Origin: Deltaproteobacteria bacterium
GTDB lineage: Bacteria; Desulfobacterota; Desulfuromonadia; Desulfuromonadales; Geopsychrobacteraceae
NCBI GenBank assembly: GCA_024276905.1
Contig: JAJRWF010000012.1
Coordinates: forward strand, 1-32,935
Reading direction: 5' to 3'
DNA: 32,935 bases
Both the position numbers and the translations under genes were made by a program. Below the pieces are notes generated by a model. The model was not told the origin of the DNA. It ran no database searches and saw only the letters and a program-made list of their open reading frames with translations. This document shows positions 1,964-23,177 of this stretch, piece by piece. Position 1 is the first letter of the stretch; each line of letters begins with the position of its first letter.

Positions 1964-4051
1964 ATGTTGGATGCCCTGTTCAAGCCGAAAGCGGTGGCGC
2001 TGATCGGTGCCTCGACCAAGGAACTGTCGATCGGCAACGTCATTATCCGTAACCTGCAGAAGTACGGGTACAAGGGAGAAATCTATCCGGTCAACGCCAA
2101 GGCCGATGAGGTCTGCGGAATCAAAGCCTATCCGACCCTGAGCGACATCCCCGGTGAAGTTGATCTGGCGCACATCATTATCCCCAGCAAGTTCGTGCCC
2201 GACGCGATTGAAGAATGCGGGCGCAAAGGGGTCAAGGCGGTTATCATCAACTCGGCCGGTTTCAGCGAGATGGGCGAAGAAGGGGCACGGCTGCAGGAAG
2301 AATTCCTGGCCAATGCACGCAAATACGGCATCCGCCTCTTCGGGCCCAACTGTCAGGGGATCATCAACTCGGATCCCGAGCTGAACGCCTACTGTAATTT
2401 CACCTTCACCTTTCCCAAGCCGGGCAGCATCTCGGTGGTTGCCCTCTCCGGCGGCGTCGGCGCGCTGATCATGCAGGTGCTGGATGACCTGGACATCGGC
2501 CAGCGCCTCTATGCCAGCAACGGCAACGCCTGTGATGTGTCGATTCCGGAAATAATCGAGTATTACGGTGAGGATGAAGGGACCAAGGCGATCATTCTCT
2601 ACACTGAAGGCTTTGACAAACCGCGCGAATTCCTGGAAGTCACCCGTAAGGTTACGGCCAAAAAGCCGGTCCTGGCGATGAAGGCCGGGCGCACCGAAGA
2701 AGGCGCCAAGGCCGCCTCCTCCCATACCGGCTCACTGGCCGGGGTCGATATCGCCACCGAGCTGATTTTTGAGAAGATCGGTGTGCTGCCCTTCCATGAT
2801 GAGGGTGAGATCGTGCGTGCGGCGATGGCCTTTTCGAGCCAGCCGATTCCCAGCGGCAACCGGGTCGGTATTATTACCAACACCGGCGGACCGGCAGTGA
2901 TCGCCACTGACGTACTGGTCGGTTTCGGTATCGAAGTGCCGAAGTTGGGTGAGGCCTCGATCGCCAGTCTGCGCGAGACCCAGTTTCCCCAGGCTGCGCT
3001 CGAGAACCCGATTGACGTGGTTGCCACGGCCGGTGGCCCGCAGTTTCGCGCCGCCCTTGACGTGCTGATGGATGATGAGCAGATCGACTGCGTCTACATC
3101 AACTTCGTCACCGCGCCCTTTACCGATACTGATGAGGTGGCGCGTGAAATCGTCGCCGTCAGTCGTCAGCGCCGCAAGCCGCTGGTGTGTAACTTCATGA
3201 CCAACCTCAAACTGGAACGCTACCAGAAGACGATGGCGATCCTCAAAGAGGGCGAGGTGCCCTATTACGCCAATCCTGGTGATGCGGCTCGCGCGCTCGG
3301 CGCTCTGGTGCAGTACGGCCAGATCCAGCAGCGTGATATCGGTCAGCCGCAGATCTTCAGCGGCGTTGATCCGGCCAAAGCCAGAGAGATCATCGAACAG
3401 GCGCAGCAGGACGGACAGGCAGTTCTTTCCGCCTTTGACGTCTACCGGATCTTTGAGGCCTACGGAATTCCGGTCGCACCCTGGCAGGTGGTGAAGGATG
3501 CCGCGGCGGCGGTTGCCGCAGCGGATCAGATCGGCTACCCGGTAGTGGTCAAGGTCGACTGCGCGGCGATCGATCACAAGAGTGATATGGGCGGCGTTGC
3601 GATCAACCTCAAGGACGCCGCCGCGGTGCGCTCGACGGTTGAGGAGATGCAGCAGCGTCTCGGCGAGTACGGTGAACTCGGCTTCCTGGTGCAGAAATTT
3701 CTGCCCGGCGGTCGGGAACTGATCATCGGCGCCAGCGCCGAACGGGAGCTGGGACACCTGGTGATGTTCGGTCTCGGCGGTATCTATGTCGAAGTGCTCA
3801 AGGACGTGGTCTTCAAGGTCGCTCCGGTGACCTGCGTCGAAGCGGAAGAGATGCTGGCCGGGATCAAAACCGCGGCCCTGCTCGACGGTGTACGCGGCGA
3901 GGACGGCATCGACAAGCAGGCGGTGATCGAATTGATTCAGCGCGTCTCGCAACTGCTTGGCGATCTGCCGATGATTCAGGAGATGGATCTGAACCCGATT
4001 ATGGCCTTTGCCGACAAAATTTTTGCTGTTGACGGCAGAATCCGTATTTAA
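1964..4051 (+). CDS. acyl-CoA synthetase (ADP-forming), fused alpha-beta
   Basis: This 695-residue single-chain NDP-forming acyl-CoA synthetase belongs to the superfamily of ACD and succinyl-CoA synthetase. It interconverts acyl-CoA + ADP + Pi and acid + CoA + ATP, and so can give substrate-level ATP. Order of domains: an N-terminal CoA-binding Rossmann domain (ALIGAS near residue 12), two succinyl-CoA-ligase-like domains, and a C-terminal ATP-grasp domain (from about residue 480). The ATP-grasp part includes YPVVVKVD and GGRELIIGAS. H254 in SSHTGSLAG matches the phosphorylated histidine of the alpha subunit. The length fits fused ACDs, which run near 700 residues. The start is set by GGAGAG just upstream at 1951-1956. 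The gene sits between the dehydratase and a CoA-transferase, so it probably harvests the CoA thioesters made by IorAB or by the dehydratase route. Confidence 0.93.
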   Translation: MLDALFKPKAVALIGASTKELSIGNVIIRNLQKYGYKGEIYPVNAKADEVCGIKAYPTLSDIPGEVDLAHIIIPSKFVPDAIEECGRKGVKAVIINSAGFSEMGEEGARLQEEFLANARKYGIRLFGPNCQGIINSDPELNAYCNFTFTFPKPGSISVVALSGGVGALIMQVLDDLDIGQRLYASNGNACDVSIPEIIEYYGEDEGTKAIILYTEGFDKPREFLEVTRKVTAKKPVLAMKAGRTEEGAKAASSHTGSLAGVDIATELIFEKIGVLPFHDEGEIVRAAMAFSSQPIPSGNRVGIITNTGGPAVIATDVLVGFGIEVPKLGEASIASLRETQFPQAALENPIDVVATAGGPQFRAALDVLMDDEQIDCVYINFVTAPFTDTDEVAREIVAVSRQRRKPLVCNFMTNLKLERYQKTMAILKEGEVPYYANPGDAARALGALVQYGQIQQRDIGQPQIFSGVDPAKAREIIEQAQQDGQAVLSAFDVYRIFEAYGIPVAPWQVVKDAAAAVAAADQIGYPVVVKVDCAAIDHKSDMGGVAINLKDAAAVRSTVEEMQQRLGEYGELGFLVQKFLPGGRELIIGASAERELGHLVMFGLGGIYVEVLKDVVFKVAPVTCVEAEEMLAGIKTAALLDGVRGEDGIDKQAVIELIQRVSQLLGDLPMIQEMDLNPIMAFADKIFAVDGRIRI

Positions 4052-5510: not shown

Positions 5511-6851
5511 ATGGCCTGGAGTCAGGAAGAAACCATCAGTCGTGATGAGATGCAAGCCCTGCAGCTGAAAAGATTGCAGGACACCCTCAGCTATGTTTAC
5601 GAGGGCAACAGCTACTACCGACAGAAGCTTGACGCTCTGGGGGTGAAACCGGGTGATATCAGATCACTCGCAGACATCAAGCTGCTGCCCTTTACCACCA
5701 AGCAGGATCTGCGTGACAATTACCCCTTCAAACTCTTCACCGCTTCGCCGCAGGAGATCGTCGAGTATCATGCGACCTCGGGTACCACCGGCAAACCGAT
5801 TGCGGTCGGCTACACCAGAAAAGATCTCGATATCTGGTCCGAGTCGATGGCCCGCACCTGTGCCGGGGCCGGCATTACCAGCGAGGATGTGGTGCAGAAC
5901 ATCTTCGGCTACGGCCTCTTTACCGGCGGCCTGGGAGCTCATTACGGAGCCTTGCGGATCGGCGCGGGGGTGATTCCGATTTCCGGCGGGAATACCCAGA
6001 AGCAGATCATGCTGATGCAGGATTTCGGTTCCACGGCACTGACCTCGACCCCGTCTTTTCTGGTCCATATCCACGAAGTCGGCGAGCAGATGGGGGTCGA
6101 TTTCAAGAAGCTCAATCTCAAAACAGCCATCTGCGGCGCAGAACCCTGGAGCGAATCGATGCGCCAGTCGATTCAGGACAAGTTCGGCATCAAGGTCTGT
6201 GATATCTACGGGCTGTCGGAAATTACCGGACCCGGAGTTTCATTCGAATGTCATGAAGAGCAGAGCGGTCTGCACATCAATGAGGACTTCTTCTATCCGG
6301 AGATTATTGACCCTGACAGCGGCGAGGTTCTTCCGGCCGGTGCCGAAGGCGAACTGGTTTTCACCACGATCCTCAAGTACGGGCAGCCCTTGTTGCGTTA
6401 CCGGACGCGGGATATTTCCAGTCTTTCTTACGAAACCTGTTCCTGCGGCCGCACCCTGGTAAAAATGGCGCGAGTCACCGGGCGCAGTGATGACATGCTG
6501 ATTATCCGCGGGGTCAATGTTTATCCCTCGCAGATCGAGGCGGTGATCCTCAAGCGTGAAGGCGTTTCACCCCACTACATGGTGATTGTCGAACGCAAGG
6601 GGGCGATGGATTCGTTGCGGGTCAAGGTCGAAGTCACCGAGGAGTTCATGGTCAAGGCGGCGGCCGATATACTGAAAGGCGCCGAATTCGATATTCTCGA
6701 AGATGTGGCTCGGGTGCGCAGCAAAAAGCAGAATCTGCAGCAGGATATCAAGGATGTTATCGGTATCAGTGTCGAAGTCCACCTGGTGCCGCCCAACAGT
6801 ATTCCGCGCAGTGAAGGCAAGGCCAAGCGGATTGAAGATCGACGTAAATAA
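5511..6851 (+). CDS. phenylacetate-CoA ligase family protein (AMP-forming)
   Basis: This 446-residue member of the ANL adenylate-forming superfamily is closest in pattern to PaaK phenylacetate-CoA ligase. It would adenylate an aromatic or other carboxylic acid and transfer it to CoA, giving AMP and PPi. Visible motifs are the P-loop SGTTGKP beginning near residue 90, DIYGLSEITGPG (A5-like), LRYRTRDIS (A7), RSDDMLIIRGVNVYP (A8 hinge) and a C-terminal GKAKR with the expected lysine. A CSCGRT pair of cysteines before the hinge is typical of PaaK-type proteins and may bind zinc. GTAAGGA at 5501-5507 precedes the ATG. PaaK-like genes next to iorAB are a recurrent arrangement in anaerobic bacteria and archaea. 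Here it may re-activate aryl-acetates or equivalent acids released by IorAB and the ADP-forming synthetase. Confidence 0.92.
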   Translation: MAWSQEETISRDEMQALQLKRLQDTLSYVYEGNSYYRQKLDALGVKPGDIRSLADIKLLPFTTKQDLRDNYPFKLFTASPQEIVEYHATSGTTGKPIAVGYTRKDLDIWSESMARTCAGAGITSEDVVQNIFGYGLFTGGLGAHYGALRIGAGVIPISGGNTQKQIMLMQDFGSTALTSTPSFLVHIHEVGEQMGVDFKKLNLKTAICGAEPWSESMRQSIQDKFGIKVCDIYGLSEITGPGVSFECHEEQSGLHINEDFFYPEIIDPDSGEVLPAGAEGELVFTTILKYGQPLLRYRTRDISSLSYETCSCGRTLVKMARVTGRSDDMLIIRGVNVYPSQIEAVILKREGVSPHYMVIVERKGAMDSLRVKVEVTEEFMVKAAADILKGAEFDILEDVARVRSKKQNLQQDIKDVIGISVEVHLVPPNSIPRSEGKAKRIEDRRK

Positions 6852-6944: not shown

Positions 6945-6961
6945 AAAAAAGGAAGGTTTTG

Positions 6962-8728
6962 ATGAAAAAAATAATTTCCGGCAATGAAGCCATAGCTCTG
7001 GGGTTCGGGGATTCAGGCGGGGTTTTTGCCTCCGGCTATCCCGGCACCCCCAGTACCGAAACCCTCGAAGAAGTTGCTCGTCTGGGTGATGTCTACTGCG
7101 AGTGGGCCGCCAATGAAAAAGTCGCCCTAGAAGCGGCAATCGGGGGCTCAATCGCCGGAGGACGTTCCCTTTCGACCATGAAGCATGTCGGGGTCAATGT
7201 TGCCGCCGACGCGCTGATGACCCTGACCTATACCGGAGTCAACGCCGGATTGATTTTGATGGTGTCCGATGATCCGGGGATGCACTCCTCGCAGAACGAA
7301 CAGGACAGTCGCAACTACGCCAAGTTCGCCAAGGTGCCGATGCTCGACCCGGCCAATTCTCAGGAAGCCTACGATATGGTGCGGGCCGGCTTCGAGATTT
7401 CCGAACAGTTCGATACCCCGTTGATGCTGCGTACTACCACCCGGATTGCCCATGCCAAGGGGGTGGTGGTTCCGGGGGAGAAAATCGCGCCGCAGATCGG
7501 GGAATGGGTCAAGGATGTTCCAAAGTATGTGATGCTGCCCAACTTCGGCAAGATCAAGCATGTCGAGGTCGAGGCACGGCTGTTGAAACTGCAGGAATTC
7601 GCTGAAACCACACCTCTCAACCGGGTTGAGATGGGCGATACCGAAGTCGGTATCATTACCTCCGGGGTTTCCTACCAGCATGTCCGCGAAGCCTGCCCCG
7701 ATGCCTCGGTTCTGAAACTGGGACTGGTTCATCCGCTGCCGGAGCGTAAAATTCGCGAGTTCGCCGCCAGCGTCAAGCGCCTGGTCATTGTTGAAGAGAT
7801 GGATGCAATCTTTGAAGAGCAGATTCGCGCCATGGGGATCGAGGTCGAAATCGGCAAAAACAAGCTGCCGCTCTGCGGTGAAATTAATGCCGATCTGATT
7901 CGCGTCGCCCTTGACGACACCAAGGCCGAAGTTGTCGCTCCGGTCGAGGGCTTGCCGCAACGGCCGCCGGTTTTCTGCCCCAGCTGCGCCCACCGCGGAC
8001 TGTTCACCATCCTCAGCAAGCTCAAGACTTTCGTCTCCGGCGACATCGGCTGCTATACCCTGGGCGCCCTGCCGCCGATGGGAGCCATGCATTCGGTGAT
8101 CGACATGGGCGCCAGTATCAGCGCCGCCCACGGCATGGCCAAGGTCAATGCGATTGCCGGTCGTGACGAGAAACCGGTGGCGGTCATCGGCGATTCAACC
8201 TTCTTCCATTCCGGCATCACCGGCCTGCTGAGTATGGCCTACAACGGCGGCAACGCGCTGGTGATTATCATGGATAACCGCACCACCGGCATGACCGGCG
8301 GTCAGGAGAATCCCGGCAGTGGCAATACCCTGCAAGGAATCCCGGCCAAGCAGGTTGAAATCGCGCCGCTGGTCAAGGCGCTGGGAATCGAAAATGTCGC
8401 GGAGCTGGATGCCTATGATCTCAAGGCGACCGAAGCAGCGATCAAGAAAGGGCTTGAGACCCCCGGGCCTTATGTCCTGATCGACAAGAATCCCTGTATT
8501 CTGCGCTACAAGATCCGCAAACCGGCGATCCATGTTGATCAGGAAAAATGTACCGGTTGCCGGGCCTGTCTCAAGGTGGCCTGTATGGCTCTGGGTCTGA
8601 CCGCTTCCGGCGAAAAGCAGAAGGTACGGGTCGATCCCAACGTCTGCAACGGCTGCGGTGTCTGTACCCAGATGTGTAAATTCGACGCGATGCACGAGCT
8701 TGAGGGAGAAAACAATGCAAATCTTTAA
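6962..8728 (+). CDS. iorA: indolepyruvate ferredoxin oxidoreductase, alpha subunit
   Basis: This 588-residue IorA catalyses, with IorB, the oxidative decarboxylation of aryl-pyruvates (or related 2-oxo acids) to acyl-CoA, CO2 and reduced ferredoxin. The N-terminal half is the pyrimidine-binding domain (FASGYPGTPSTE). The middle domain includes GVSYQH and the FCPSCAHRGLF segment. The thiamine diphosphate motif begins GDS at residue 410 and closes with IIMDNRTTGMTGGQ. The C-terminus is a two-cluster ferredoxin domain with C530-C533-C536-C541 and C562-C565-C568-C572, the standard IOR arrangement. ATG 6962 is chosen over TTG 6959 because GGAAGG (6951-6956) is better spaced. The gene overlaps iorB by 14 bases. 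The 2-oxo acid specificity is not readable; the PaaK-like neighbour suggests aromatic substrates. Confidence 0.96.
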   Translation: MKKIISGNEAIALGFGDSGGVFASGYPGTPSTETLEEVARLGDVYCEWAANEKVALEAAIGGSIAGGRSLSTMKHVGVNVAADALMTLTYTGVNAGLILMVSDDPGMHSSQNEQDSRNYAKFAKVPMLDPANSQEAYDMVRAGFEISEQFDTPLMLRTTTRIAHAKGVVVPGEKIAPQIGEWVKDVPKYVMLPNFGKIKHVEVEARLLKLQEFAETTPLNRVEMGDTEVGIITSGVSYQHVREACPDASVLKLGLVHPLPERKIREFAASVKRLVIVEEMDAIFEEQIRAMGIEVEIGKNKLPLCGEINADLIRVALDDTKAEVVAPVEGLPQRPPVFCPSCAHRGLFTILSKLKTFVSGDIGCYTLGALPPMGAMHSVIDMGASISAAHGMAKVNAIAGRDEKPVAVIGDSTFFHSGITGLLSMAYNGGNALVIIMDNRTTGMTGGQENPGSGNTLQGIPAKQVEIAPLVKALGIENVAELDAYDLKATEAAIKKGLETPGPYVLIDKNPCILRYKIRKPAIHVDQEKCTGCRACLKVACMALGLTASGEKQKVRVDPNVCNGCGVCTQMCKFDAMHELEGENNANL

Positions 8729-9287
8729 TATCGTTATTGCCGGCGTCGGTGGTCAGGGAGTCCTGATGGCCTCTAAAGTGCTGGCCGAAAGTGCCCTGGC
8801 CAGCGGCCTGGATGTCAAACAGAATGAAGTTCACGGCATGGCGCAGCGCGGCGGCAGCGTGATCAGCTTCGTGCGTATCGGTGACCAGGTCTGCTCGCCG
8901 GTGGTGATGCCCGGAACTGCTGACCTGCTGATCTCCTTCGAGCCGCTCGAAGCCCTGCGTTATATCCACTATCTCAAGCCGGGCGGCCGACTGGTCTACA
9001 ACAAGGTCTCGATCAACCCGAGTACCGTAGCCGCCGGACTGGCGATCTATCCGGATGATGTCGAAGAACAGATCGCTGCGGCCTGCGCTGCGGCCAAAGG
9101 GATTGAAGCGCTCTCCATCGCCCGTGAAGCCGGTAACGGCAAGGCGGTCAATATGGTGATGGTCGGAACGGTGATGAAAGACCTGCCGCTCAAGGAGGAG
9201 ATCATTACCGAAGTCGTGAAACAGATCTCGCAGAACAAAGGAGTCGAGGTCAACATGAAGGCGCTGGCGGGTGGTGCTGCCGCTTGA
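8715..9287 (+). CDS. iorB: indolepyruvate ferredoxin oxidoreductase, beta subunit
   Basis: This 190-residue protein matches the gamma/beta-type 2-oxoacid:acceptor oxidoreductase domain that pairs with IorA. Family landmarks are the N-terminal GVGGQGVL loop near residue 10, the QNEVHGMAQRGGSV segment, the EPLEALR helix and a C-terminal helix-rich region ending in a Gly/Ala tail. The length agrees with the usual IorB of about 190-200 residues. The start is ATG 8715, preceded by GAGGGAG, and lies inside the end of iorA. The 14-base overlap indicates translational coupling for equimolar subunits. A longer in-frame extension to 8658 exists, but it would run through the iorA ferredoxin domain and lacks a ribosome site. 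Confidence 0.95.
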   Translation: MQIFNIVIAGVGGQGVLMASKVLAESALASGLDVKQNEVHGMAQRGGSVISFVRIGDQVCSPVVMPGTADLLISFEPLEALRYIHYLKPGGRLVYNKVSINPSTVAAGLAIYPDDVEEQIAAACAAAKGIEALSIAREAGNGKAVNMVMVGTVMKDLPLKEEIITEVVKQISQNKGVEVNMKALAGGAAA

Positions 9288-12584: not shown

Positions 12585-13631
12585 ATGAAAAGAACATTCG
12601 TCCTGTCCCTGTTCATTGTGCTGGCTGTCAGTCTGCTGTGCAGCCCGGCTTTTGCAGGGAAAAAAGATCCATTGGCAAACTGGAAGACAAAATTTGATTA
12701 TTCGAAGGCTGAATATACCTATATTTTGTCGAACATCTCGCATCCGGTCATTGAAGGGGTTGCGGTCGGTTACAATATCCGTGATGCCTTATGGAAAAAA
12801 TCCAATGGCCGCATCTATGTGGATTACCGTCCCCTGGCACAACTTGGCGGTGAAAAAGATGTTATCTCCAAGCTGAAAATCGGCGCTGTCCAGGGAATGC
12901 TGGCGTCTTCGGTCGCTTCGGCCAATATTGCCGACCGTCTCGGCCTGGTCAACCTGCCCTACGTCATCGATACCTTTGACAAGCTGGATCAGTTCCGTAA
13001 CGACCCTGAGCTCTGGGGTCCCTACAGCAACAGCGCCCAGGCTGCCGGCCTGCTGGTTCCCGACATCACCGGCTACGGCCTTTACGGCTGGGCAACCACC
13101 ACACCGGTTCGCACTCTCGCCGATGCAAAATCGGTCAACTTCCGCATCGCTCAGGCTCCGGTTAACGCGGACTTCTACAAGGCCTGGGGCTACAAATTTA
13201 CCGTTCTGCCCTGGCCGGATGTTCCGCAGGCCCTGCAGACCGGCGTTATCAATGGTCTCGACCACACGGCAATTGTTTGTAACATCACCAAGAAATTTAC
13301 CATTGCCAAGTACTTCACCGAGGTCAACTATGCCCAGGGACTCTTCCTCCACCTGGTCAACAAGCGCTGGTTCAACAAGCTGCCGAAAGACCTGCAGAAG
13401 ATCTTCCTTGAGGTCATCGCAGAGGAAAGTGCCAAGACCCGTGATCTGACCAGAAAACAGCATGATGCTCAAGTCGCCAAAGCCAAGGCTGCCGGTGTCG
13501 AGTTCTTCACGCTCTCCGCTGCCGACAGGGCAACCCTGGTCAAGGAAGCCGGACCTGTCTATGCCAAGTGGGGCAAAAAGATTGGTGCCGATTATCTGGA
13601 GAAAGTCCGGACCAAGCTCGGAAGCAAGTAA
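12585..13631 (+). CDS. TRAP transporter solute-binding protein (DctP family)
   Basis: This 348-residue periplasmic receptor of a tripartite ATP-independent transporter has a signal peptide (about residues 1-24, ending in AFA) followed by the mature domain. DctP-family features are the AQLGGEKDVISKLKIG block, LVNLPYVIDTF and NFRIAQAPVNADFYKAWG. The arginine of the last motif normally salt-bridges a substrate carboxylate. LPWPDVPQALQTGVINGLDH matches the conserved region before the hinge. The start is set by a near-perfect ribosome site (AAGGAGGTG, 12572-12580), stronger than that of the following genes. A terminator stands between it and the permease genes, in keeping with the excess of receptor over membrane subunits such systems need. 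The ligand is probably an organic acid used by the neighbouring CoA pathway, which is an inference. Confidence 0.93.
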   Translation: MKRTFVLSLFIVLAVSLLCSPAFAGKKDPLANWKTKFDYSKAEYTYILSNISHPVIEGVAVGYNIRDALWKKSNGRIYVDYRPLAQLGGEKDVISKLKIGAVQGMLASSVASANIADRLGLVNLPYVIDTFDKLDQFRNDPELWGPYSNSAQAAGLLVPDITGYGLYGWATTTPVRTLADAKSVNFRIAQAPVNADFYKAWGYKFTVLPWPDVPQALQTGVINGLDHTAIVCNITKKFTIAKYFTEVNYAQGLFLHLVNKRWFNKLPKDLQKIFLEVIAEESAKTRDLTRKQHDAQVAKAKAAGVEFFTLSAADRATLVKEAGPVYAKWGKKIGADYLEKVRTKLGSK

Positions 13632-13661
13632 GCAACTGAACCCTTTGATTCTTTGACCTGA

Positions 13662-13691
13662 GCCGGGGAGCCCAGCTCCCCGGCTTTTTTT
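13662..13691 (+). terminator. rho-independent terminator between receptor and permease genes
   Basis: A perfect 10-bp stem (GCCGGGGAGC at 13662-13671, GCTCCCCGGC at 13675-13684) with a 3-base loop is followed by seven T residues. It lies between two genes of one transporter, so it probably acts as a partial terminator or 3'-end stabiliser that raises the level of the binding-protein mRNA. Confidence 0.9.
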
Positions 13692-13706
13692 CTTCAGGGC
13701 AATAAA

Positions 13707-14204
13707 ATGCTGAAAAAAATAATTCAGAAGGTTGATCGTCTCTTCATTTTCTTTGAAGACTGGTCGCTGATGCTTTCAGTCTGTATCGCCCTGACTGTTG
13801 CTATGGCCAATGTTTTGCTGCGTAAATTGACCAATGAGGTCAATCTCTACTGGTCAGACGAAGTGGTACGTAAAACGATCTATTTTTCGACCTATGTCGG
13901 TTGTATTGTCGCAGTTCGCGGTCGTTCATTGATCCGGATTGACGCCCTGCCGCAACTGGTTCCGGGGCTGAAAAAACCGTTGACCATGTTTGCTCACCTG
14001 GCGACCCTGGTGTTTTCCGGTGCCATGGTTTATCTGGGCTGGTCCATGACGGTGATGATGTACGAAGACGAATACGCCCGGACCGCCAGCCTGCAGATCC
14101 CCGAATGGATATTTTATGCTGTTCTGCCGATGATGGGAGTGATGATGTTTTTCCGCACCCTGCTTGTTATGGTCGAAGACTGGAAGGAGGGGGCTGTCAA
14201 TTAA
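13707..14204 (+). CDS. TRAP transporter small permease (DctQ family)
   Basis: This 165-residue inner-membrane protein has four predicted hydrophobic segments (about residues 19-36, 52-68, 90-112 and 128-152), the usual DctQ layout. The segment NEVNLYWSDEVVRKTIYFSTYVGCIVAVR resembles the conserved W-x-E/D-E region and the following G-x-x-x-A-x-R motif of the family. It associates with the large permease and receives the receptor. ATG 13707 has only a weak ribosome site (CAGGGC), which fits lower expression than the receptor. It is 16 bp past the terminator and 39 bp before the large permease. Confidence 0.88.
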   Translation: MLKKIIQKVDRLFIFFEDWSLMLSVCIALTVAMANVLLRKLTNEVNLYWSDEVVRKTIYFSTYVGCIVAVRGRSLIRIDALPQLVPGLKKPLTMFAHLATLVFSGAMVYLGWSMTVMMYEDEYARTASLQIPEWIFYAVLPMMGVMMFFRTLLVMVEDWKEGAVN

Positions 14205-14243
14205 GGATCGCCCCAGCGATTCTGTGAAATGCCCGTATAAATT

Positions 14244-15530
14244 ATGGACTCCAGTTACCTGATCATTCTGTTTCTGCTGCTCGGCCTGCTTGGCTCGACA
14301 GTTCCGGTCTTCATGTCCTTGTTCTTTACCGGTTTCGTCGGGCTGGTCTTCATGCTCGGCATTGACCCGCAGATTGTCATCGAAGTGCTTTATCGCAGTA
14401 TGGATAAATTTGCCCTGGTGGTGGTGCTGTTCTTTATCCTCTGCGGCAATATCATGACCACCGGTTCAATCGTGCAAAAGTTGATCAAGACTGCCAACGT
14501 CATGGTCGGTTTTTTGCCGGGCGGATTGGCCATGGCCGGCATTCTGGCGTGCGGTTTTTTTGGCGCGATCTCCGGCTCAACGGTCGCGACCGTGGTCGCC
14601 ATAGGCGGTTTCATGATTCCGGCCCTGATCGAAAACGGTTATGACGAAAAGTTTTCGGTCGGGATTATGACAACCGCGCCCAATCTGGGCATCATCATTC
14701 CACAGTCAATTTCAATGATTCTCTACTCAATGGTCAGTAACGACCCGATTGAAGCCCTGTTTTTAACCGGCTTTATCCCGGGAATCATGATCATGTTGGC
14801 AATGAGTCTGTACGCCTACTTCTACTGTAAAAAGAGAAATTACAAAACCCAACCGCGGCCGAGCTTAAAGGAACTGATCGCTGTCTTCAAGGAGAGTGTC
14901 TGGGCTCTGTGTTTGCCGGTGCTGATCTTCGGCGGGATATATTCCGGCCTGTTCACGGCCAATGAAGCAGCGGTTGTTGCCTGTTTTTACGCTTTTTTTG
15001 TCGAGGTCTTCATCCACAAGGATATGAAGTTTCAGGACATCAAAAGGGTTATCGTGGCCTCATCGGTCACCTCGGCAACCCTGCTGGTGATTGTCGCCGG
15101 GGCCTCGGTTTTCGGTGAGTACCTGACCTTTGAACAGATTCCGAACAAGATTGCCGAGGCGGTGGTCAGTCAGATTTCGTCAACTTGGGTTTTCCTGCTG
15201 GCAGTCAACATCATGCTGTTGGTGGTCGGCATGTTCATGGATATTATTTCGGCAACCCTGATTCTGACGCCGATCTTCCTGCCGCTGCTGGCTTCTTTTG
15301 GTATCGATACCATGCATTTCGGTCTGCTGATGACGATAAATCTGGGTATCGGCTACTGCACACCGCCACTGGGTGTCAGTCTCTATATCTCCGGTGCTGC
15401 GGTTGACCGCAACCTGATTTATGTTTCGAAAGCGGTGTTACCGTTTCTGGTGATTCAGATCGGAATCCTGCTGATTCTGACCTACTGGGCAGACCTGGTG
15501 CTCTTCTTGCCGCGTCTGGTCTACGGCTGA
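14244..15530 (+). CDS. TRAP transporter large permease (DctM family)
   Basis: This 428-residue integral membrane protein of the DctM family (ion transporter superfamily) forms the sodium-coupled transport channel. Hydrophobic segments occur along the whole length, about 11-12. Family motifs include the GGLAMAGILACGFFGAISGSTVATVVAIGG block (about residues 92-121), EAAVVACFYAFFVE, VGMFMDIISATLILTPIFLP near residue 330 and NLGIGYCTPPLGVSLY near residue 370. The length matches the typical 425-430. The ribosome site upstream of ATG 14244 is poor, so translation may depend on the upstream gene. With the receptor and the small permease it makes a complete three-component system. Confidence 0.93.
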   Translation: MDSSYLIILFLLLGLLGSTVPVFMSLFFTGFVGLVFMLGIDPQIVIEVLYRSMDKFALVVVLFFILCGNIMTTGSIVQKLIKTANVMVGFLPGGLAMAGILACGFFGAISGSTVATVVAIGGFMIPALIENGYDEKFSVGIMTTAPNLGIIIPQSISMILYSMVSNDPIEALFLTGFIPGIMIMLAMSLYAYFYCKKRNYKTQPRPSLKELIAVFKESVWALCLPVLIFGGIYSGLFTANEAAVVACFYAFFVEVFIHKDMKFQDIKRVIVASSVTSATLLVIVAGASVFGEYLTFEQIPNKIAEAVVSQISSTWVFLLAVNIMLLVVGMFMDIISATLILTPIFLPLLASFGIDTMHFGLLMTINLGIGYCTPPLGVSLYISGAAVDRNLIYVSKAVLPFLVIQIGILLILTYWADLVLFLPRLVYG

Positions 15531-15594
15531 TGGCTTGCCATGGTGGTACCTGAGGGCAGGGTTGAAAACCTACTGATTGCACAAGGAGCTTGGA

Positions 15595-16020
15595 ATGACT
15601 GCAGGGATACTGATTCCAGTTGATGAATCGGTCACGACACAGCAAACGATTGAGGCCATCATCAAGGACCGGGAACTGTTGCCGGAAGAGTTGCTTCTGC
15701 TGCATGTTGTTGATGTTCATCTGGCCCATCGTCTGGTGCCCGACATCCAGAAAAATATGGTTCATGAAGCGGCCGAGAAATCGGGCCGACGGATCCTGGA
15801 AAAACTGGCCGCGCCTTTTCGGGACGCAGGTTTTGAACCGAAATTACTGCTTGAGCTGGGAACTCCCGGCGAAGTGATTCCGAAAGTTGTCGAACAACAG
15901 AACGTTGAGCTGGTGATTATCGGTCGCCACCCTGGCGGTGGCGGTTTGCGCGATGTCATGTTCGGTTCGGTGGCAAACCAGATTATCCGTGCAGTCAAGT
16001 GCCCGGTTCTGCTCTTCTGA
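15595..16020 (+). CDS. universal stress protein, UspA family
   Basis: This 141-residue single-domain Usp has an N-terminal ILIPVDES strand and the C-terminal nucleotide motif GRHPGGGGLRDVMFGSVAN, which follows the G-x2-G-x9-G-S/T pattern of ATP-binding members. It lies 64 bp after the large TRAP permease and 22 bp before the oxidoreductase gene. In Halomonas, the UspA-like TeaD is encoded with the TeaABC TRAP transporter and tunes its activity; the same placement here suggests a similar regulator. ATG 15595 is preferred over the in-frame TTG at 15577 because AAGGAG (15582-15587) lies just upstream of it. Confidence 0.9.
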   Translation: MTAGILIPVDESVTTQQTIEAIIKDRELLPEELLLLHVVDVHLAHRLVPDIQKNMVHEAAEKSGRRILEKLAAPFRDAGFEPKLLLELGTPGEVIPKVVEQQNVELVIIGRHPGGGGLRDVMFGSVANQIIRAVKCPVLLF

Positions 16021-16042: not shown

Positions 16043-18367
16043 ATGGATACCAGACAGCGTATCACACAGATTTTAGGCCGGATGCATGACGTCCCCCAGT
16101 ACCCGAGTCAGGGTGCGGTGCTTTTTGTCGATCTTGAACAACAAAACTGCCGACGGGCCTATCTGCCGCTCGATGCGGTGCAGAATTTTCTCGCCGGGCG
16201 CGGCGGCAACATGTATCTACTCTACAACCTGCTGCAGGAAGATAAGGATGCGCTCGATCCCGAAGTCCCCCTGATCTTCGGTGCCGGAGTCCTGACCAGC
16301 AATATGCCGGGTGCCACGCGCGGCAACGTCAGTAGTCGTTCGCCGGAGAGCTGCGCGATCCTCGATAGCAATGCCGGGGATTATTTCCCCACCTATCTGA
16401 AACGTCACGGCTACGACCATCTGGTGCTTTACGGCCGAAATCCGCAGTGGACCCTGCTTAAAATCACGCAGCAAGAGGTCAGTTTTATCGATGCCGGTCC
16501 CTATACAGGCATGGACAATATTGAATTTACTGCTGCAATCGAGCGCGATTTCGATTGTACGGAACGAAAAGACATGGCGATGGCGCGGATCAGCAGCGCC
16601 GGTGAAAATCAGGTGCTGTGCAGCGGGATCATGGCGGGCGAAAAGGCGATCTGGGCGCGTGGCGGCGGCGGCGCCAAGATGGGCGCCCTGCAACTGAAGG
16701 CAATCCTGATTCAAGGTCAGCTGCCGGACTTTGAACTTTCCGCAGTCTACAAAAAGACCAATCGTGAGCTGGGTAAAAAAATCCTCAGCGCCAGTGTGGT
16801 CCAGAATGCACTGAAAAAGGTCGGTACGCCCTTTCTTTACAAACCGAGTCGGGTGCTGGGCGCCATGGGCACCAAGAACAATCAGGAAACCACCTGGCAC
16901 GACAGTCTTGATGCCGACAACTTCGACCCCTACCGGCCGGGAATGAGCGGGTGCTACAAGTGCCCGGTCTGTTGCCGGGCCAACAATGACATGCTGCCCG
17001 GCGGCAAGGGCGGTTGGGGTGCCAGTGCGTTGAAGGGGCTCAACGGCAACGCCAGTTACGACAAGGAGCAGAGTGGCCTCGAACATCACAAGGGTCGTAC
17101 CTACAACGGCATCAACAACGATGGTCAGTTCGACCAGTACGACAAGGGCGAAGGCCCCGAATATATCATCGTTGGCAAGTTCGGCCCCAATATCGGCATC
17201 AAGGAACCGGAGCAGGTCCTGCGCCTGAACAACATCATCAATGATCTGGCGCTCGATGCCTCCAGCACCGGCAGTGCGATTGCCTGGGCGATGGAACTTT
17301 ACCAGCGCGGCATCATTGATCAGCAGACCACCGGTGGGCTCGATCTGAGCTGGGGGAATTACCCGGTGATCGAGCAACTGTTGTTCATTACCGCCAGGCG
17401 CGAAGGCTTCGGCGAAACGATCGCACTTTCCAGCCGGGCAGTGGAAGCGGGGAAGTATCCCGCCGAAGCGCTGCAATACTGCATGGCCTCCAAGGGCCTG
17501 TTTCAATCGGACCCCCACGACGCTCGGATTCTCAAGGCTTTTGCCCTGGGCCTGGCGGTCGCGACCCGCGGCATGGATCATCTGCGTAACCGCGCCACCC
17601 TGGAGATCAACGCCCGCATCAATGATGATGCCGACTTCAAGACCGCGCTCTACGGCGGTGTGGTTTCGCCCGAACCGACCGCGTATGCAGGCAAGGAACA
17701 CGCGGTGCGGCGCTGCGAAAATACCTTTGCCGTCGGCGACGCGCTCGGCGTCTGTCGTTTCAACACCAAACTGTTCAACTCGCCATCAACCCTCGATCTG
17801 GATGATTTTGCCACCCAGGTCGGCGAGCTGACCGGCCTGCCTTTGAGCGGGACCGAGCTGGATGAGATCGGGCGTAACATCACCGGGCTGGAGCGGATGC
17901 TCAACTTCCGTTTTGGTCTGCGTGCTGCTGATGACAGCTTGCCGCCGCGCTGGTTTGATGAACCGATCAAGGTCGGGCCCTTCCAGGGCGAAAAGATTGA
18001 TCGCGAGCAATTCGAGGCGCTCAAGCAGCGTTTCTACCGGATGACAGGCCTTAACAGTGAAGGGCTACCCGCACTCGACTGGCATACCCGGTTGTCGAAA
18101 ATTGTCACCGGCTACAGCATCAGGGTCAAGTTCCCCTGTGAATTGCCCGGTATTCCAGAACAGGGCATCGTTGTCGATGAACAGGTTGCGCACCTGGGCG
18201 AACTGCGTCGGTTGCTGCAGCGCAAACTGCCCGCGGCGCATGAGGTGCTGAACGACCCGAATCTCAATATTGTTCTTAATGGCAAGATGATCCTTGCCGG
18301 TGAGGAGCAGATTGAAATTCCCGATGGCAGCGAGCTGTGTTTGATCTCTATTGTTTCGGGGGGCTAA
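16043..18367 (+). CDS. aldehyde ferredoxin oxidoreductase fused to a C-terminal MoaD/ThiS-like domain
   Basis: This 774-residue protein is a tungsten-type aldehyde:ferredoxin oxidoreductase. The family oxidises aldehydes to acids (or reduces acids) with a bis-pterin tungsten site and one [4Fe-4S] cluster. The cluster ligands are C304-C307-C311 (CX2CX3C, in GCYKCPVCC) and C571 in DALGVCRF. The N-terminal domain has the GRGGNMYLLYNLL and FGAGVLTSNMPGATRGN blocks. AORs are usually near 600-700 residues. Here the last 80 or so residues (from about SIRVKF) look like a ubiquitin-fold sulfur-carrier domain: LNIVLNGK, a hydrophobic strand, IPDGSELCLISIVSGG and a terminal Gly-Gly. ATG 16043 has GGAGAGGATAGG before it. 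In other organisms separate moaD- and moeB-like genes accompany aor, which supports the reading. The partner electron-transfer subunit is not seen here. Confidence 0.9.
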   Translation: MDTRQRITQILGRMHDVPQYPSQGAVLFVDLEQQNCRRAYLPLDAVQNFLAGRGGNMYLLYNLLQEDKDALDPEVPLIFGAGVLTSNMPGATRGNVSSRSPESCAILDSNAGDYFPTYLKRHGYDHLVLYGRNPQWTLLKITQQEVSFIDAGPYTGMDNIEFTAAIERDFDCTERKDMAMARISSAGENQVLCSGIMAGEKAIWARGGGGAKMGALQLKAILIQGQLPDFELSAVYKKTNRELGKKILSASVVQNALKKVGTPFLYKPSRVLGAMGTKNNQETTWHDSLDADNFDPYRPGMSGCYKCPVCCRANNDMLPGGKGGWGASALKGLNGNASYDKEQSGLEHHKGRTYNGINNDGQFDQYDKGEGPEYIIVGKFGPNIGIKEPEQVLRLNNIINDLALDASSTGSAIAWAMELYQRGIIDQQTTGGLDLSWGNYPVIEQLLFITARREGFGETIALSSRAVEAGKYPAEALQYCMASKGLFQSDPHDARILKAFALGLAVATRGMDHLRNRATLEINARINDDADFKTALYGGVVSPEPTAYAGKEHAVRRCENTFAVGDALGVCRFNTKLFNSPSTLDLDDFATQVGELTGLPLSGTELDEIGRNITGLERMLNFRFGLRAADDSLPPRWFDEPIKVGPFQGEKIDREQFEALKQRFYRMTGLNSEGLPALDWHTRLSKIVTGYSIRVKFPCELPGIPEQGIVVDEQVAHLGELRRLLQRKLPAAHEVLNDPNLNIVLNGKMILAGEEQIEIPDGSELCLISIVSGG

Positions 18368-18401
18368 CCTGCGGAGAAGCGGGGGATATGGAGGTCGTTT
18401 C

Positions 18402-19208
18402 TTGCTGGAAACACAGGGCTTCTTCAATATTGATGGTGTCAATCTCGAATATCAGCTGCTGACTCCGCACCGCAGTGCTGCCCTGACACTGGTTTTGCTG
18501 CATGAAGGGCTGGGCTGTGTTGCGATGTGGAAGAATTTTCCACGTCAATTGGCCGAGCTGACCGGTTGTCCGGTTCTGGCTTACAGTCGGAGTGGCTACG
18601 GTGGCTCGAGCCCCTGTCCACTGCCCCGCTCACCCGGATTTATGCACGACGAAGCGCTGAAGGTGCTGCCGAAGGTTCTGGATGCTGCGGAAGTTCAAAA
18701 GGCCGTGCTGGTTGGGCACAGTGACGGTGCCTCCATTGCCCTGATCAACGTCGGCGGCCTTGTCGACGGCCGCATCCTGGGGCTGATCCTGATGGCTCCG
18801 CATGTCTTTGTCGAAGAACTCACCATAACAAGTATTGCTGCCGTGCAGAGTGCCTACCGGAAAGCCGGTTTGCGTAAGCAGTTGGCCCGCTATCATGGCG
18901 ACAGAGTCGATTACACCTTTCTCGGCTGGAGTCAGATCTGGCTCCAGCCTGAGTTTCGGGACTGGAATATTGAAGCCTACCTGCCCCAAATCAAGCTGCC
19001 GGTTCTGCTGATCCAGGGTCGGGACGACAACTACGGAACACTTCTGCAACTGGAAAAGATCACCGCGAAACTTCCCGGTGATACCGAGGTCATCATTCTG
19101 TCCGACTGTGACCATGCCCCGTTTCGTGACCGCCCGGCTGAGACACTGCAGGCAATAGAGGCTTTTTTGTCCCACAATTTAAAGGAACAATTCTTGACGC
19201 CTGGATGA
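18402..19208 (+). CDS. alpha/beta-fold hydrolase
   Basis: This 268-residue alpha/beta hydrolase has a visible catalytic triad: S107 in the nucleophile elbow VGHSDGAS, D208 or D209 in LLIQGRDDNYGT, and H238 in DCDHAPFRD. The oxyanion segment LLHEGLG stands near residue 35. No signal peptide is seen, so it is cytoplasmic. The most likely start is TTG 18402, because GGAGG at 18390-18394 is spaced 7 bases from it and no in-frame ATG lies nearby. A longer start at 18351 would overlap the oxidoreductase gene. Placement directly after AOR suggests an ester or thioester substrate linked to that pathway. The family is too broad to name one. Confidence 0.85.
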   Translation: MLETQGFFNIDGVNLEYQLLTPHRSAALTLVLLHEGLGCVAMWKNFPRQLAELTGCPVLAYSRSGYGGSSPCPLPRSPGFMHDEALKVLPKVLDAAEVQKAVLVGHSDGASIALINVGGLVDGRILGLILMAPHVFVEELTITSIAAVQSAYRKAGLRKQLARYHGDRVDYTFLGWSQIWLQPEFRDWNIEAYLPQIKLPVLLIQGRDDNYGTLLQLEKITAKLPGDTEVIILSDCDHAPFRDRPAETLQAIEAFLSHNLKEQFLTPG

Positions 19209-20194: not shown

Positions 20195-20216
20195 AATGTT
20201 AAGGAGGAATACCACA

Positions 20217-23177
20217 ATGAAACTCTGGCTGACAAATTTCAGTATCCGTCTTCCCTGGCTGGTGGCCGGGTTGACCCTTCTGGCGGTGGTGCTGTTCGGC
20301 GCCCAGTTCCCCAAGGTTCACTTTGATAACGACCCGGAAAATATGCTCTCGGCCGATGAACCGGTGCGTATCTACCACCACCAGATCAAGGAACTCTACG
20401 ATCTGTATGATTTCGTTATCGTCGGCATCAGCAACGAAACCGACCCTGACGGCATCTTCAACCCCGGAACCCTGGGCCGGATCTATGATCTGACCGGGGC
20501 GCTGCTCAGTCTGCAACCGACGGAAAAAGGGTTGGTTAAAGTCCACTTCCCGGGCGTCGATGGCCAGACACCACGTGACGAAGTTCTGGATTTGACCCCA
20601 CAGGGCGCCTGGCAGCGCGGACTTAACAAGGCGTTCATGGTCGATCCCAACCGGCTGTTCACCGAAGACGGTCAGAGCGCGATCATCGGCCGTGAGCTGA
20701 TCGGTCCGAGTGTCGTCGATAATCTCAAGCAGGCCGAGCTTGGCGCCCTTAAGCTTGAGTATCTGATGGAACAGCCACCGAAGAACCGTGAAGAAGCCTT
20801 GCAGATTCGCGATGACGCCCTGGGCAATCCACTCTATTATGGCACCCTGGTGGCGGAAGATGGTAAGGCGATAAGTCTCTATATCCCGATCAGGGAGAAG
20901 ACGTTCAGCTACAATGTTGCCAATCTGGTGCGCCATCTGACCGCTGAGTGGGATGGTGAGGACGAAGTCCACATTACCGGGCTGCCGGTCGCTGAAGATA
21001 CCTTCGGGATTGAAATGCTGGTACAGATGGCGACCTCGGCACCATTGGCGATGCTGGTTATTTTTATCCTGCTGCTGTTTTTTTTCCGTCGCATCAGTAT
21101 TGTTATCGCCCCGATGCTGGTAGCGATAACCAGCGTGATCTGCACCATGGGCCTGCTGATCGGGCTCGGTTATGACGTGCATATCATGAGTTCGATGATC
21201 GCGATCTTCCTGATGCCGATCGCGGTGGCTGACTCAGTGCATGTGATCAGCGAATTCTATGACCGCTACCACCTTTACAACAATAAACGGGACGCCTTGC
21301 GGCATGTGATCGGCCATCTGTTCAAGCCGATGCTCTTCACCAGTTTGACCACCATGGCCGGTTTCGGCTCCCTGATCTTCACCCCGATTCCGCCGGTGCG
21401 GATTTTCGGTGCACATATCGCTTTCGGCGTCGGTCTGGCCTGGTTGCTGACCATGACCCTGGTGCCGGCCTATATCATGTTGGCCATTTCCGAAAAATCC
21501 TTGCAGAAGCTGCAGCATAGCGATCAGGAGCAGGTGCGTCCGCAGAGTTGGCTGACCCGCTTCCTCGAAGGGCTCGGAGGCTTCAGTTTTGAGCGTCGCC
21601 GCCTGATTATGCTGGTGACTCTCGTGCTGGTGGCAATTTCGGCTGTCGGTATCAGCAAGATCGAGGTGAACGACAATCCGGTCAAGTGGTTTGCTGCCGA
21701 CCACGAGATCCGTAAGGCCGACGCCGTACTGAATAAACATTTCGGCGGCACCTATACCGCCTACCTGACCCTTGAAGGAGAGGGTCGGTCCGCTTTCGAC
21801 CCGGCTCGCGCAACGACCTTACTCAAGTCCCGCGCTCGTGAGGAACTCGGGACGCTCTGGCCACAGAGGAGCAGCAAGTTTCTGACAGCTCTGGACTCGC
21901 TCGGAAAAGCGCCTGATGCCGGGAGCTTCAATCAACAGCTGCAGCAAATCGCCGCCAGATTCGACGCTCAGGTTCTGGGAGGCTGGCAGTGGCTTGGAGA
22001 TGAGGTTTCCTATCTCGACCCACAGGGGCTGACACGTGCAACCCTTGAATCACAACTGCAATCTCTGGCCGCTGCGCCGCAGGCAGAGATTGGTCAGCTG
22101 GTTGGTGAGCTCAAGGAGCAGGGTGCAGGTGAACAGTTACTTGATGCGGCCCTGGCCCGGATAGATAAACGACTGGCCAATGGTTTTGGCGCCTTTGCCG
22201 GACGTCAACTGGCGGCGTTTGATGCCCCATTGTTCAAGCAACCGGAAGTGTTGCGCTATGTTGAAAAATTACAGCAGTTTCTGGCCGAGGACGAAACGGT
22301 CGGCAAATCAACCTCAGCGGTTGATGCCCTTAAGAAGGCGTCTTATGAGCTGCAGTATCGCAGCGACCAGAATGACGAACGAAATAGAGAACGTTATGCT
22401 GTGCCCGGCTCTGTTCCGGCGGTTGCCCAGGTTTTCACCCAGCTTGAAGGGATGAAAAAGAAAGATGCTCTTTTCCATCTGGTGACCCGTGACTACCAGA
22501 AAGCAAATTTGTGGGTACAACTCAAAAGTGGTGACAACAAGGACATGGAAAAGGTGGTCGCGGATGTCGAGCGGTTCTTTATTGCCAATCCGCCGCCCGT
22601 ACCGATGAAGCACGCCTGGGCCGGTCTGACCTACCTCAACGTCGTCTGGCAGGACAAGATGGTCACCGGAATGCTTGCCTCTCTGGGCAGCTCCTTTGTC
22701 GTGGTGCTGGTGATGATGATCGTCCTCTTCCGCTCGCTGCTGTTCGGGTTGCTGGCGATGATCCCCCTGTCGGTCACGATTACACTGATCTACGGGATGA
22801 TCGGCCTGGCGGGCAAGGACTATGATATGCCGGTTGCCATTCTGTCAGCCATGACCCTGGGATTGTCGGTCGATTTTGCCATTCACTTTCTAGAACGTGC
22901 GCGCCAGTTGCAACAACAGCTCGGCAGCTGGCAACGGGCAGCCACCGAGATGTTCAAGGAACCGGCCACGGCGATCAGCCGCAACGCGATTATTATCTCG
23001 ATCGGCTTCACCCCCCTGCTGGTGGCTCCGCTGGTTCCTTACAATACGGTCGGGTTCTTTATTGCCGCCATCATGGCTGTCAGCTGGCTGGCAACGCTCT
23101 TTCTCCTACCAGCCTTGTTGACCAGTTTGCAAAAGTGGGCCTTCCCGAATGATCGTTCAGGAAAAGGAGATGCATGA
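20217..23177 (+). CDS. RND/MMPL-family exporter
   Basis: This 986-residue inner-membrane exporter of the RND superfamily, MMPL type (COG1033-like), has two repeated halves. Each half has one N-terminal transmembrane segment, a large periplasmic loop and a five- to six-helix bundle (about residues 275-425 and 815-970). The conserved acidic positions of the RND proton relay appear in MPIAVADSVHVISEF and in TLGLSVDFAIHFLERA. The second periplasmic domain (about 470-810) is rich in Gln and Leu and probably helical. ATG 20217 has AAGGAGG upstream. It overlaps the next gene by 4 bases (ATGA). MMPL proteins of this kind, such as HpnN, move lipids or other hydrophobic compounds to the outer membrane. 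The partner genes here fit such a route. Confidence 0.9.
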   Translation: MKLWLTNFSIRLPWLVAGLTLLAVVLFGAQFPKVHFDNDPENMLSADEPVRIYHHQIKELYDLYDFVIVGISNETDPDGIFNPGTLGRIYDLTGALLSLQPTEKGLVKVHFPGVDGQTPRDEVLDLTPQGAWQRGLNKAFMVDPNRLFTEDGQSAIIGRELIGPSVVDNLKQAELGALKLEYLMEQPPKNREEALQIRDDALGNPLYYGTLVAEDGKAISLYIPIREKTFSYNVANLVRHLTAEWDGEDEVHITGLPVAEDTFGIEMLVQMATSAPLAMLVIFILLLFFFRRISIVIAPMLVAITSVICTMGLLIGLGYDVHIMSSMIAIFLMPIAVADSVHVISEFYDRYHLYNNKRDALRHVIGHLFKPMLFTSLTTMAGFGSLIFTPIPPVRIFGAHIAFGVGLAWLLTMTLVPAYIMLAISEKSLQKLQHSDQEQVRPQSWLTRFLEGLGGFSFERRRLIMLVTLVLVAISAVGISKIEVNDNPVKWFAADHEIRKADAVLNKHFGGTYTAYLTLEGEGRSAFDPARATTLLKSRAREELGTLWPQRSSKFLTALDSLGKAPDAGSFNQQLQQIAARFDAQVLGGWQWLGDEVSYLDPQGLTRATLESQLQSLAAAPQAEIGQLVGELKEQGAGEQLLDAALARIDKRLANGFGAFAGRQLAAFDAPLFKQPEVLRYVEKLQQFLAEDETVGKSTSAVDALKKASYELQYRSDQNDERNRERYAVPGSVPAVAQVFTQLEGMKKKDALFHLVTRDYQKANLWVQLKSGDNKDMEKVVADVERFFIANPPPVPMKHAWAGLTYLNVVWQDKMVTGMLASLGSSFVVVLVMMIVLFRSLLFGLLAMIPLSVTITLIYGMIGLAGKDYDMPVAILSAMTLGLSVDFAIHFLERARQLQQQLGSWQRAATEMFKEPATAISRNAIIISIGFTPLLVAPLVPYNTVGFFIAAIMAVSWLATLFLLPALLTSLQKWAFPNDRSGKGDA

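Follow-up and report, generated by a model that had tools for sequence, protein, structure and literature searches.

The window analysed here, a stretch of 32,935 nucleotides, carries at 16043..18367 (+) a gene in which an aldehyde ferredoxin oxidoreductase (AOR) and a MoaD/ThiS-like domain are fused. By translation it encodes 774 residues; its ATG start at 16043 is preceded by gggagaggatagg, and a TAA stop closes the frame at 18367. The AOR core consists of an AFOR_N domain at residues 25-225 (16115..16717, +; PF02730, E 1.1e-45) and an AFOR_C domain at residues 239-684 (16757..18094, +; PF01314, E 1.4e-83). As the original prediction had it, the core keeps four cluster cysteines: C304, C307 and C311 (16952..16975, +) align with C288, C291 and C295 of PfAOR, and C571 (17753..17755, +) aligns with C494. 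The full-length structural model (pLDDT 76.5, pTM 0.86) matches 1aor_A over 561 aligned residues (Z 37.2, rmsd 2.6). Its weak stretches, at pLDDT below 50, include residues 250-272, 295-313, 371-377 and 504-528, and active-site residues lie there. With both AFOR domains, the 1aor_A fold and the four cysteines, the protein is a member of the AOR/WOR family. The pterin-binding motifs of this family we take to lie near PfAOR positions 338-343 and 489-494; in that region, by alignment, D405, D566, G569 and C571 are retained and N400 replaces PfAOR D338. The metal is presumably tungsten. Opposite the AOR gene runs an antisense ORF of 494 aa, 16217-17701 (-); long antisense ORFs also occur at some beta-proteobacterial loci, and this one is probably an effect of codon bias.

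A scan of genome contigs returned 174 relatives, of which the best 80, representing 78 distinct loci, were kept. Alignments were made on a set of 57 sequences, the window and 56 of the 78 loci, after two truncated and the near-identical (>= 93%) sequences had been dropped. Throughout this set, drawn from the best 80 of 174 relatives, C304, C307, C311 and C571 are invariant (57/57, window included). The relatives share the start and end of the window protein, and 69 of the 77 stop-bearing genes among the best 80 of 174 encode exactly 774 residues. Among the hosts identified by name in the best 80 of 174 relatives are Geothermobacter, Motiliproteus, Amphritea, Aromatoleum, Azoarcus and Polaromonas, along with MAGs of Desulfuromonadales, Geobacteraceae, Rhodocyclales and Sulfuritalea. 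The fused enzyme is patchy, occurring in Desulfuromonadia, in Rhodocyclales and their relatives, and in Motiliproteus/Amphritea. Under strict thresholds (1e-100, 1e-45), the fused gene was present in 4 of 297 genomes of the phylum, its own included, and in 3 of 300 genomes of the order of Aromatoleum buckelii; all 4 + 3 matches extend to residue 774, and no tail-less close relative was found in either genome set. ORF clusters and frame lengths point to a second fused AOR copy nearby in some beta-proteobacteria (L058, L069, L072, L094; G082, G084).

The tail, residues 690-774 (18110..18364, +), stands right behind the last AOR helix and reads DGSELCLISIVSGG-stop, with Gly-Gly as residues 773-774 (18359..18364, +). 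PF02597 (ThiS) matches residues 708-774 of the whole protein at 21.3 bits, just below the cut-off of 22.5, and the isolated window tail at 26.7 bits; it matches all 57 isolated tails of the set from the best 80 of 174 relatives at E <= 0.01. The same E threshold and the same selection, the best 80 of 174, gave NCBIfam matches to 45/57 tails for TIGR01687, 44/57 for TIGR01682 and 7/57 for thiS. Taken individually, sequence matches are weak, and this counts against a MoaD-type carrier: the window tail scores 16.4 of the 49.5 bits of the curated NCBIfam MoaD cut-off, far under it, and the tail profile finds solved SAMP2, MoaD and ThiS chains at E 0.015 at best. Modelled alone (mean pLDDT 83.4), the tail is predicted to fold as strand-strand-helix-helix-strand-strand-strand, a ubiquitin-like beta-grasp. 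Foldseek placed this model near 1nvi_D (E 3.6e-4), and VIA-align matched it to the MoaD chains 6jbz_B (Z 11.2, rmsd 2.1, 81 aligned) and 1fm0_D (Z 10.2, rmsd 2.8, 80 aligned); among solved structures it comes closest to MoaD subunits of molybdopterin synthase and their relatives. In the full-length model, residues 692-774 align with 1fm0_D (Z 10.8, rmsd 2.5, 78 aligned) with the final residues paired. The match to MoaD/ThiS is not a chance one, and the tail combines the predicted beta-grasp fold with the terminal Gly-Gly of ubiquitin-like sulfur carriers.

SAMP1 and Urm1 are also among the near fold matches (Z about 9-10), and the SAMP1 model matches 33 of the 57 tails from the best 80 of 174 relatives. 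Such similarity could mean that the Gly-Gly serves for conjugation in the manner of ubiquitin or SAMP, tying the enzyme to another protein or regulating it. We regard this as highly improbable: the two MoaD models, TIGR01687 and TIGR01682, match more tails of that selection, a modifier of 774 residues would be unusual, and a partial annotation of the neighbours showed no conspicuous conjugation genes.

Every gene with an available 3′ end among the best 80 of 174 relatives (77/77, from 78 distinct loci) terminates in Gly-Gly-stop; the 78th locus, L043, is outside this count since its gene is cut off by a contig end. As background, a Gly-Gly terminus occurs in 4 of 618 clustered neighbouring ORFs, which were called by a simple longest-ORF rule and fall into homologous groups, so that they are not independent. 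The codons for the two glycines vary, with 11 codon pairs in the 69 genes compared from the best 80 of 174 relatives. In 21 of 22 sequence pairs dN/dS could be estimated, at 0.035-0.308 for the tail and 0.043-0.158 for the core; the remaining pair was saturated. The tail is under purifying selection. Its divergence outpaces that of the core (mean p-distance 0.451 versus 0.255), as might that of a relic retained by chance, but dN/dS well below 1 in all 21 estimated pairs and the invariant terminus leave this reading strongly disfavoured, with a probability close to nil. Core and tail distances agree (r 0.81, a value reached in 0 of 2000 permutations), as expected for one old fusion.

The linker from core to tail is nearly absent, the last AOR helix of the model ending at residue 689 and the first MoaD strand starting from 693, and T689 and G690 are each conserved in 56 of 57 sequences (from the best 80 of 174 relatives). 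A domain held so closely, with its fold kept, might no longer carry sulfur and serve instead as a structural element or as a docking site for MoeA, MoaE or a partner AOR. We think this improbable, as an exact Gly-Gly end, kept in all 77 genes from the best 80 of 174 relatives despite free synonymous change, has no obvious use in docking. The suggestion that the tail protects the apo-site also fails to gain from the full-length model, in which the last four residues have a pLDDT of 48 and hence no docking is predicted. The resemblance to a MoaD/ThiS sulfur carrier with a Gly-Gly end, as claimed in the original prediction, is upheld by PF02597 in 57/57 tails, by the MoaD-like fold predicted for residues 690-774 (MoaD chains at Z about 10-11) and by the Gly-Gly in 77/77 genes. 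A tail that is normal throughout the clade and has no link to sulfur transfer had been named as the contrary outcome; the first part holds, every close relative seen having the tail, and the second found no support. Because of the exact terminus, the fold and the selection, loss of carrier function is unlikely, and we read the tail as a live, E1-activated, MoaD-type carrier.

The genes around the fusion bear on what the enzyme does. A universal stress protein (15577..16020, +; PF00582) lies 22 bp upstream, preceded by the TRAP transporter components DctP, DctQ and DctM (12585..15530, +; PF03480, PF04290, PF06808). Downstream is an alpha/beta hydrolase (18351..19208, +; PF00561/PF12697); its listed start overlaps the AOR stop, and the real start is probably further in. 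Named by their domains, the other upstream genes are a two-subunit indolepyruvate-type 2-oxoacid:ferredoxin oxidoreductase (6959..9287, +; PF01855, PF02775, PF01558), a phenylacetate-CoA-ligase-like AMP-binding enzyme (5511..6851, +; PF14535/PF00501) and an ADP-forming-type acyl-CoA synthetase (1964..4051, +; PF13607, PF13549, PF13380), itself preceded by a homologue of the 2-hydroxyglutaryl-CoA dehydratase D-component (710-1960). The stretch 20196-25227 encodes an MMPL-family transporter and, after it, a LolA-like and an unassigned protein. Among the 78 loci from the best 80 of 174 relatives, neighbours of the 2-oxoacid:ferredoxin oxidoreductase type were matched in 42, TRAP components in 26 and the CoA ligase in 59. 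At least one of the three was present at 69 of the 78, and at 37 of the 38 loci with 8 kb on either side (best 80 of 174); these counts have no random background, and genes of the TRAP and ligase kinds are frequent in any case. On the strength of the recurring neighbours, we infer a role of the fused AOR with aryl aldehydes or acids. An aorA-like match lies near only 2 of the 78 fused loci and an aorC-like match near 1 (best 80 of 174 relatives), and the fused enzyme therefore resembles a WOR of Class I type with a single subunit.

Active-site residues qualify this picture. For most aldehyde-oxidising WORs, Thr243, Glu313, Tyr427 and His448 of PfAOR are listed in the accessible part of a recent classification (PMC13328260). 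The counterparts of Thr243 and His448, T262 and H513, are kept in 57/57 sequences of the set from the best 80 of 174 relatives. At the Glu313 position (residue 375), the same 57 sequences from the best 80 of 174 have V, I, T or S (41/13/2/1), and at the Tyr427 position (residue 492) all 57 have His. Two of the four residues are thus replaced in every sequence compared, and because these are the Glu313 and Tyr427 counterparts, plain aldehyde oxidation by the fused AOR is not certain.

We examined which other carriers and activating enzymes accompany the fusion. Its own genome (G000, 92% complete) has three ThiF-family (PF00899) matches, one of them adjoining thiS on contig C36, in keeping with the expectation that E1-like enzymes would be available. 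On contig C121 of the same genome, a cluster contains a ferredoxin-like subunit, an unfused AOR, a flavoprotein, a stand-alone MoaD-like gene with a Gly-Gly end and an E1, so that the classical and the fused arrangements exist within one genome. The E1s on contigs C121 and C170 are candidates for activating the fused tail. The loss of stand-alone carriers that had been anticipated did not materialise. Besides the fused gene, this genome retains one ThiS and one MoaD-like carrier, at least two other ThiS/MoaD matches were found in each of 10 fusion-bearing genomes, and all 26 further fusion-bearing genomes have at least three, the fused one counted. Carrier loss as a signature of fusion is ruled out (10/10 and 26/26 genomes retain others), and the retention of other carriers in every fusion-bearing genome examined weighs against the account preferred below. 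Among the matches listed, what is missing at fused genes is only the neighbouring carrier gene: none of 10 fused AORs has one within 5 kb, versus 31 of 93 unfused AORs (Fisher p 0.03 among these matches, on non-independent data). A BLAST search of the 78 loci with one stand-alone MoaD and one E1 gave no match, the short MoaD query being insensitive. In two beta-proteobacterial genomes that also have the AOR fusion (L164, L165), a MoaD-like domain with an internal Gly-Gly is followed in frame by stretches that, read by eye, are rhodanese-like and E1-like. Also by eye, L001:458-1495 encodes a ThiF-like protein that begins with a ThiS-like stretch and adjoins a stand-alone ThiS (GGG end) and a ThiG-like gene; fusions of a ThiS-like stretch to a ThiF-like protein are described in the accessible text of PMC1779556.

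The tail profile scored six MoaE-linked MoaDs at 13.4-19.2 bits and 14 AOR-linked carriers at 1.7-10.3 bits; both sets are small and hand-chosen, and two kinds of carrier are pooled in the AOR-linked one. On these scores the tail is nearer to MoaE-linked MoaD, and it is not simply a neighbouring gene that was fused, a complication for a carrier serving its own AOR. The idea that a neighbouring WorX gene (the stand-alone ThiS-like protein considered below) became fused is accordingly not favoured.

What speaks most against a simple MoaD-MoaE scheme for the window's lineage is the MoaE gap. MoaC is present in the fusion's own genome, and MoaE, the partner in a canonical MoaD-MoaE synthase, was not found there. 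Of 60 genomes (its own and 59 relatives), 55 have MoaC matches and 14 have MoaE matches. The fused gene with its tail is present in 11 of the 60 (G000, G001, G003, G005-G008, G013, G027 in two pieces, G040 and G046); G002 shows part of it at a contig end. Neither Pfam nor a profile that includes short divergent MoaE gave a convincing match in these 11 genomes, all of the window's order, or in G002, and the undetected canonical acceptor counts against a working carrier tail. One of the 11, G003, is a single contig; G008 is also without a MoaC match; the lone MoaE match in G040 (E 0.09, inside a 1389-residue frame) was not counted. Relatives do encode a MoaE family that is divergent and short (about 118 aa; L118, L122-L124); in some genomes its gene shares a contig with moaC or an AOR and lies near it, and by alignment the family has a His and two C-terminal lysines in common with classical MoaE. 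Many of the bacteria in the 60 genomes may use a MoaE substitute. In the accessible part of a 2009 report, Geobacter metallireducens is described as without moaE, and its cofactor route with an apparently incomplete molybdopterin synthase is called unknown (PMC2700814).

Outside this group the situation differs. Among 26 further fusion-bearing genomes, hand-chosen from the 78 loci (best 80 of 174 relatives), 20 have MoaE, including Geobacteraceae bacterium G079 (L108), and fusion as a cause of MoaE loss is thereby ruled out. Since G079 and 19 others hold both fusion and MoaE, the MoaE pattern mostly follows lineage. No MoaE was found in the remaining six, Geothermobacter G060 and the MAGs G077 and G078 (Desulfuromonadales, Geobacteraceae), G081 (Deltaproteobacteria), G080 (Gammaproteobacteria) and G083 (Rhodocyclales), five MAGs that may be incomplete. 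MoaE in 20 of 26 genomes, and a tail closest to canonical MoaE-linked MoaD, are what one would see if the tail were a general-purpose MoaD that is attached to the AOR and feeds the whole-cell molybdopterin pool with no advantage in cis. There is no obvious need for such a carrier, however, as other ThiS/MoaD genes occur in these genomes too, some adjoining MoaE or other AORs, and no unfused close relative was seen in the best 80 of 174 relatives or in the 297 + 300 genomes scanned; we consider it unlikely.

The account we prefer, and hold to be somewhat better than an even bet, is that of a single-subunit AOR/WOR with a working MoaD-type carrier tail that provides sulfur for its own enzyme's dithiolene. 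A MoeB/ThiF-family E1 would adenylate the terminal glycine of the tail, and the adenylate would presumably be converted to a thiocarboxylate. The carrier would then donate sulfur to the molybdopterin dithiolene, via MoaE where present and, in MoaE-less genomes, putatively through another partner. With a very short tether to the apo-enzyme, the cofactor might be made or handed over beside its user, which would be the benefit of acting in cis. Delivery of sulfur in cis and a tail targeted by MoeB, both raised in the original prediction, are plausible, and the fused enzyme probably helps to make its own metal cofactor. That the tail would serve mainly its own enzyme is suggested by the fusion itself, by the lack of a carrier-gene neighbour and by the specificity of ubiquitin-like proteins (Ubls) in Thermococcus, where, in the accessible text, only a particular one of the three Ubls activates one tungsten enzyme, and any of them will do for others (PMC11323500). 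The same source reports, on the other side, that Ubl deletion had no effect on tungsten enzymes when elemental sulfur was present.

For the MoaE-less lineage, a bolder and distinctly improbable proposal is that a pterin precursor already sitting in the apo-enzyme receives its sulfur from the carrier tethered to that enzyme, or that the carrier recruits a MoaE replacement for this step. If true, the AOR polypeptide would share in building its own dithiolene, and the fused protein could be used as bait for a MoaE-free molybdopterin route. The missing partner (cf. Geobacter metallireducens) could be approached through this enzyme, whose MoaD tail ends in Gly-Gly in relatives that have no MoaE as well, and with carrier and enzyme in one polypeptide a single construct would suffice for an experiment.

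The architecture has been known since 2006, when Iyer, Burroughs and Aravind noted that in an 'Azoarcus' AOR a MoaD domain 'might be fused' at the carboxyl terminus (PMC1779556); the window protein likewise has MoaD carboxyl-terminal to AOR in one frame. Our loci from Aromatoleum and Azoarcus (L050, L051, L055-L057, L060, L061, L065, L068, L107) probably belong to the same family as the 2006 fusion. What the present analysis adds is the breadth, the Gly-Gly conservation, the selection, the fold and the gene context: the accessible part of the 2006 account names one organism, and we find 78 loci (best 80 of 174 relatives) in several proteobacterial lineages. A text search of the open-licence literature for AOR with a MoaD domain turned up that paper alone, and no experimental study of an AOR-MoaD fusion was found in the open-licence papers searched.

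Other systems tie carriers to these enzymes by separate genes. AOR-linked moaD genes were proposed to act in W-cofactor synthesis (PMC1779556, accessible text), and in Desulfovibrio vulgaris a chlorate phenotype is reported in common for moaE, moeB and aor (PMC10102598, in part); both points count in favour of a working carrier tail. WorX, a stand-alone ThiS-like protein near many WORs, is predicted by its authors to have a role in pterin synthesis; the accessible part of their 2026 WOR classification names this separate WorX with no mention of a fused form (PMC13328260). Like WorX as described there, the tail is a small ubiquitin-like unit tied to a tungsten enzyme; unlike it, the tail is fused rather than encoded by a separate small gene, and its sequence resembles the six canonical MoaDs scored above more closely than the 14 AOR-linked carriers. 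The tungsten AOR of Aromatoleum aromaticum, AorABC, has an operon with MoaD-like aorD/aorE (PMC6365974, accessible part). It too links AOR to a MoaD-like function, but through separate MoaD-like genes and with three subunits. The fused protein would be a built-in version of the pairing between cognate carrier and apo-enzyme that the Thermococcus work suggests. As in MoaX of Mycobacterium tuberculosis, a MoaD-MoaE fusion in which Gly-Gly is needed and which must be cut after it (PMC4326299, accessible part), the MoaD domain is found within a larger polypeptide. In the AOR fusion, unlike MoaX as reported there, the Gly-Gly is already terminal, so cleavage would be unnecessary.
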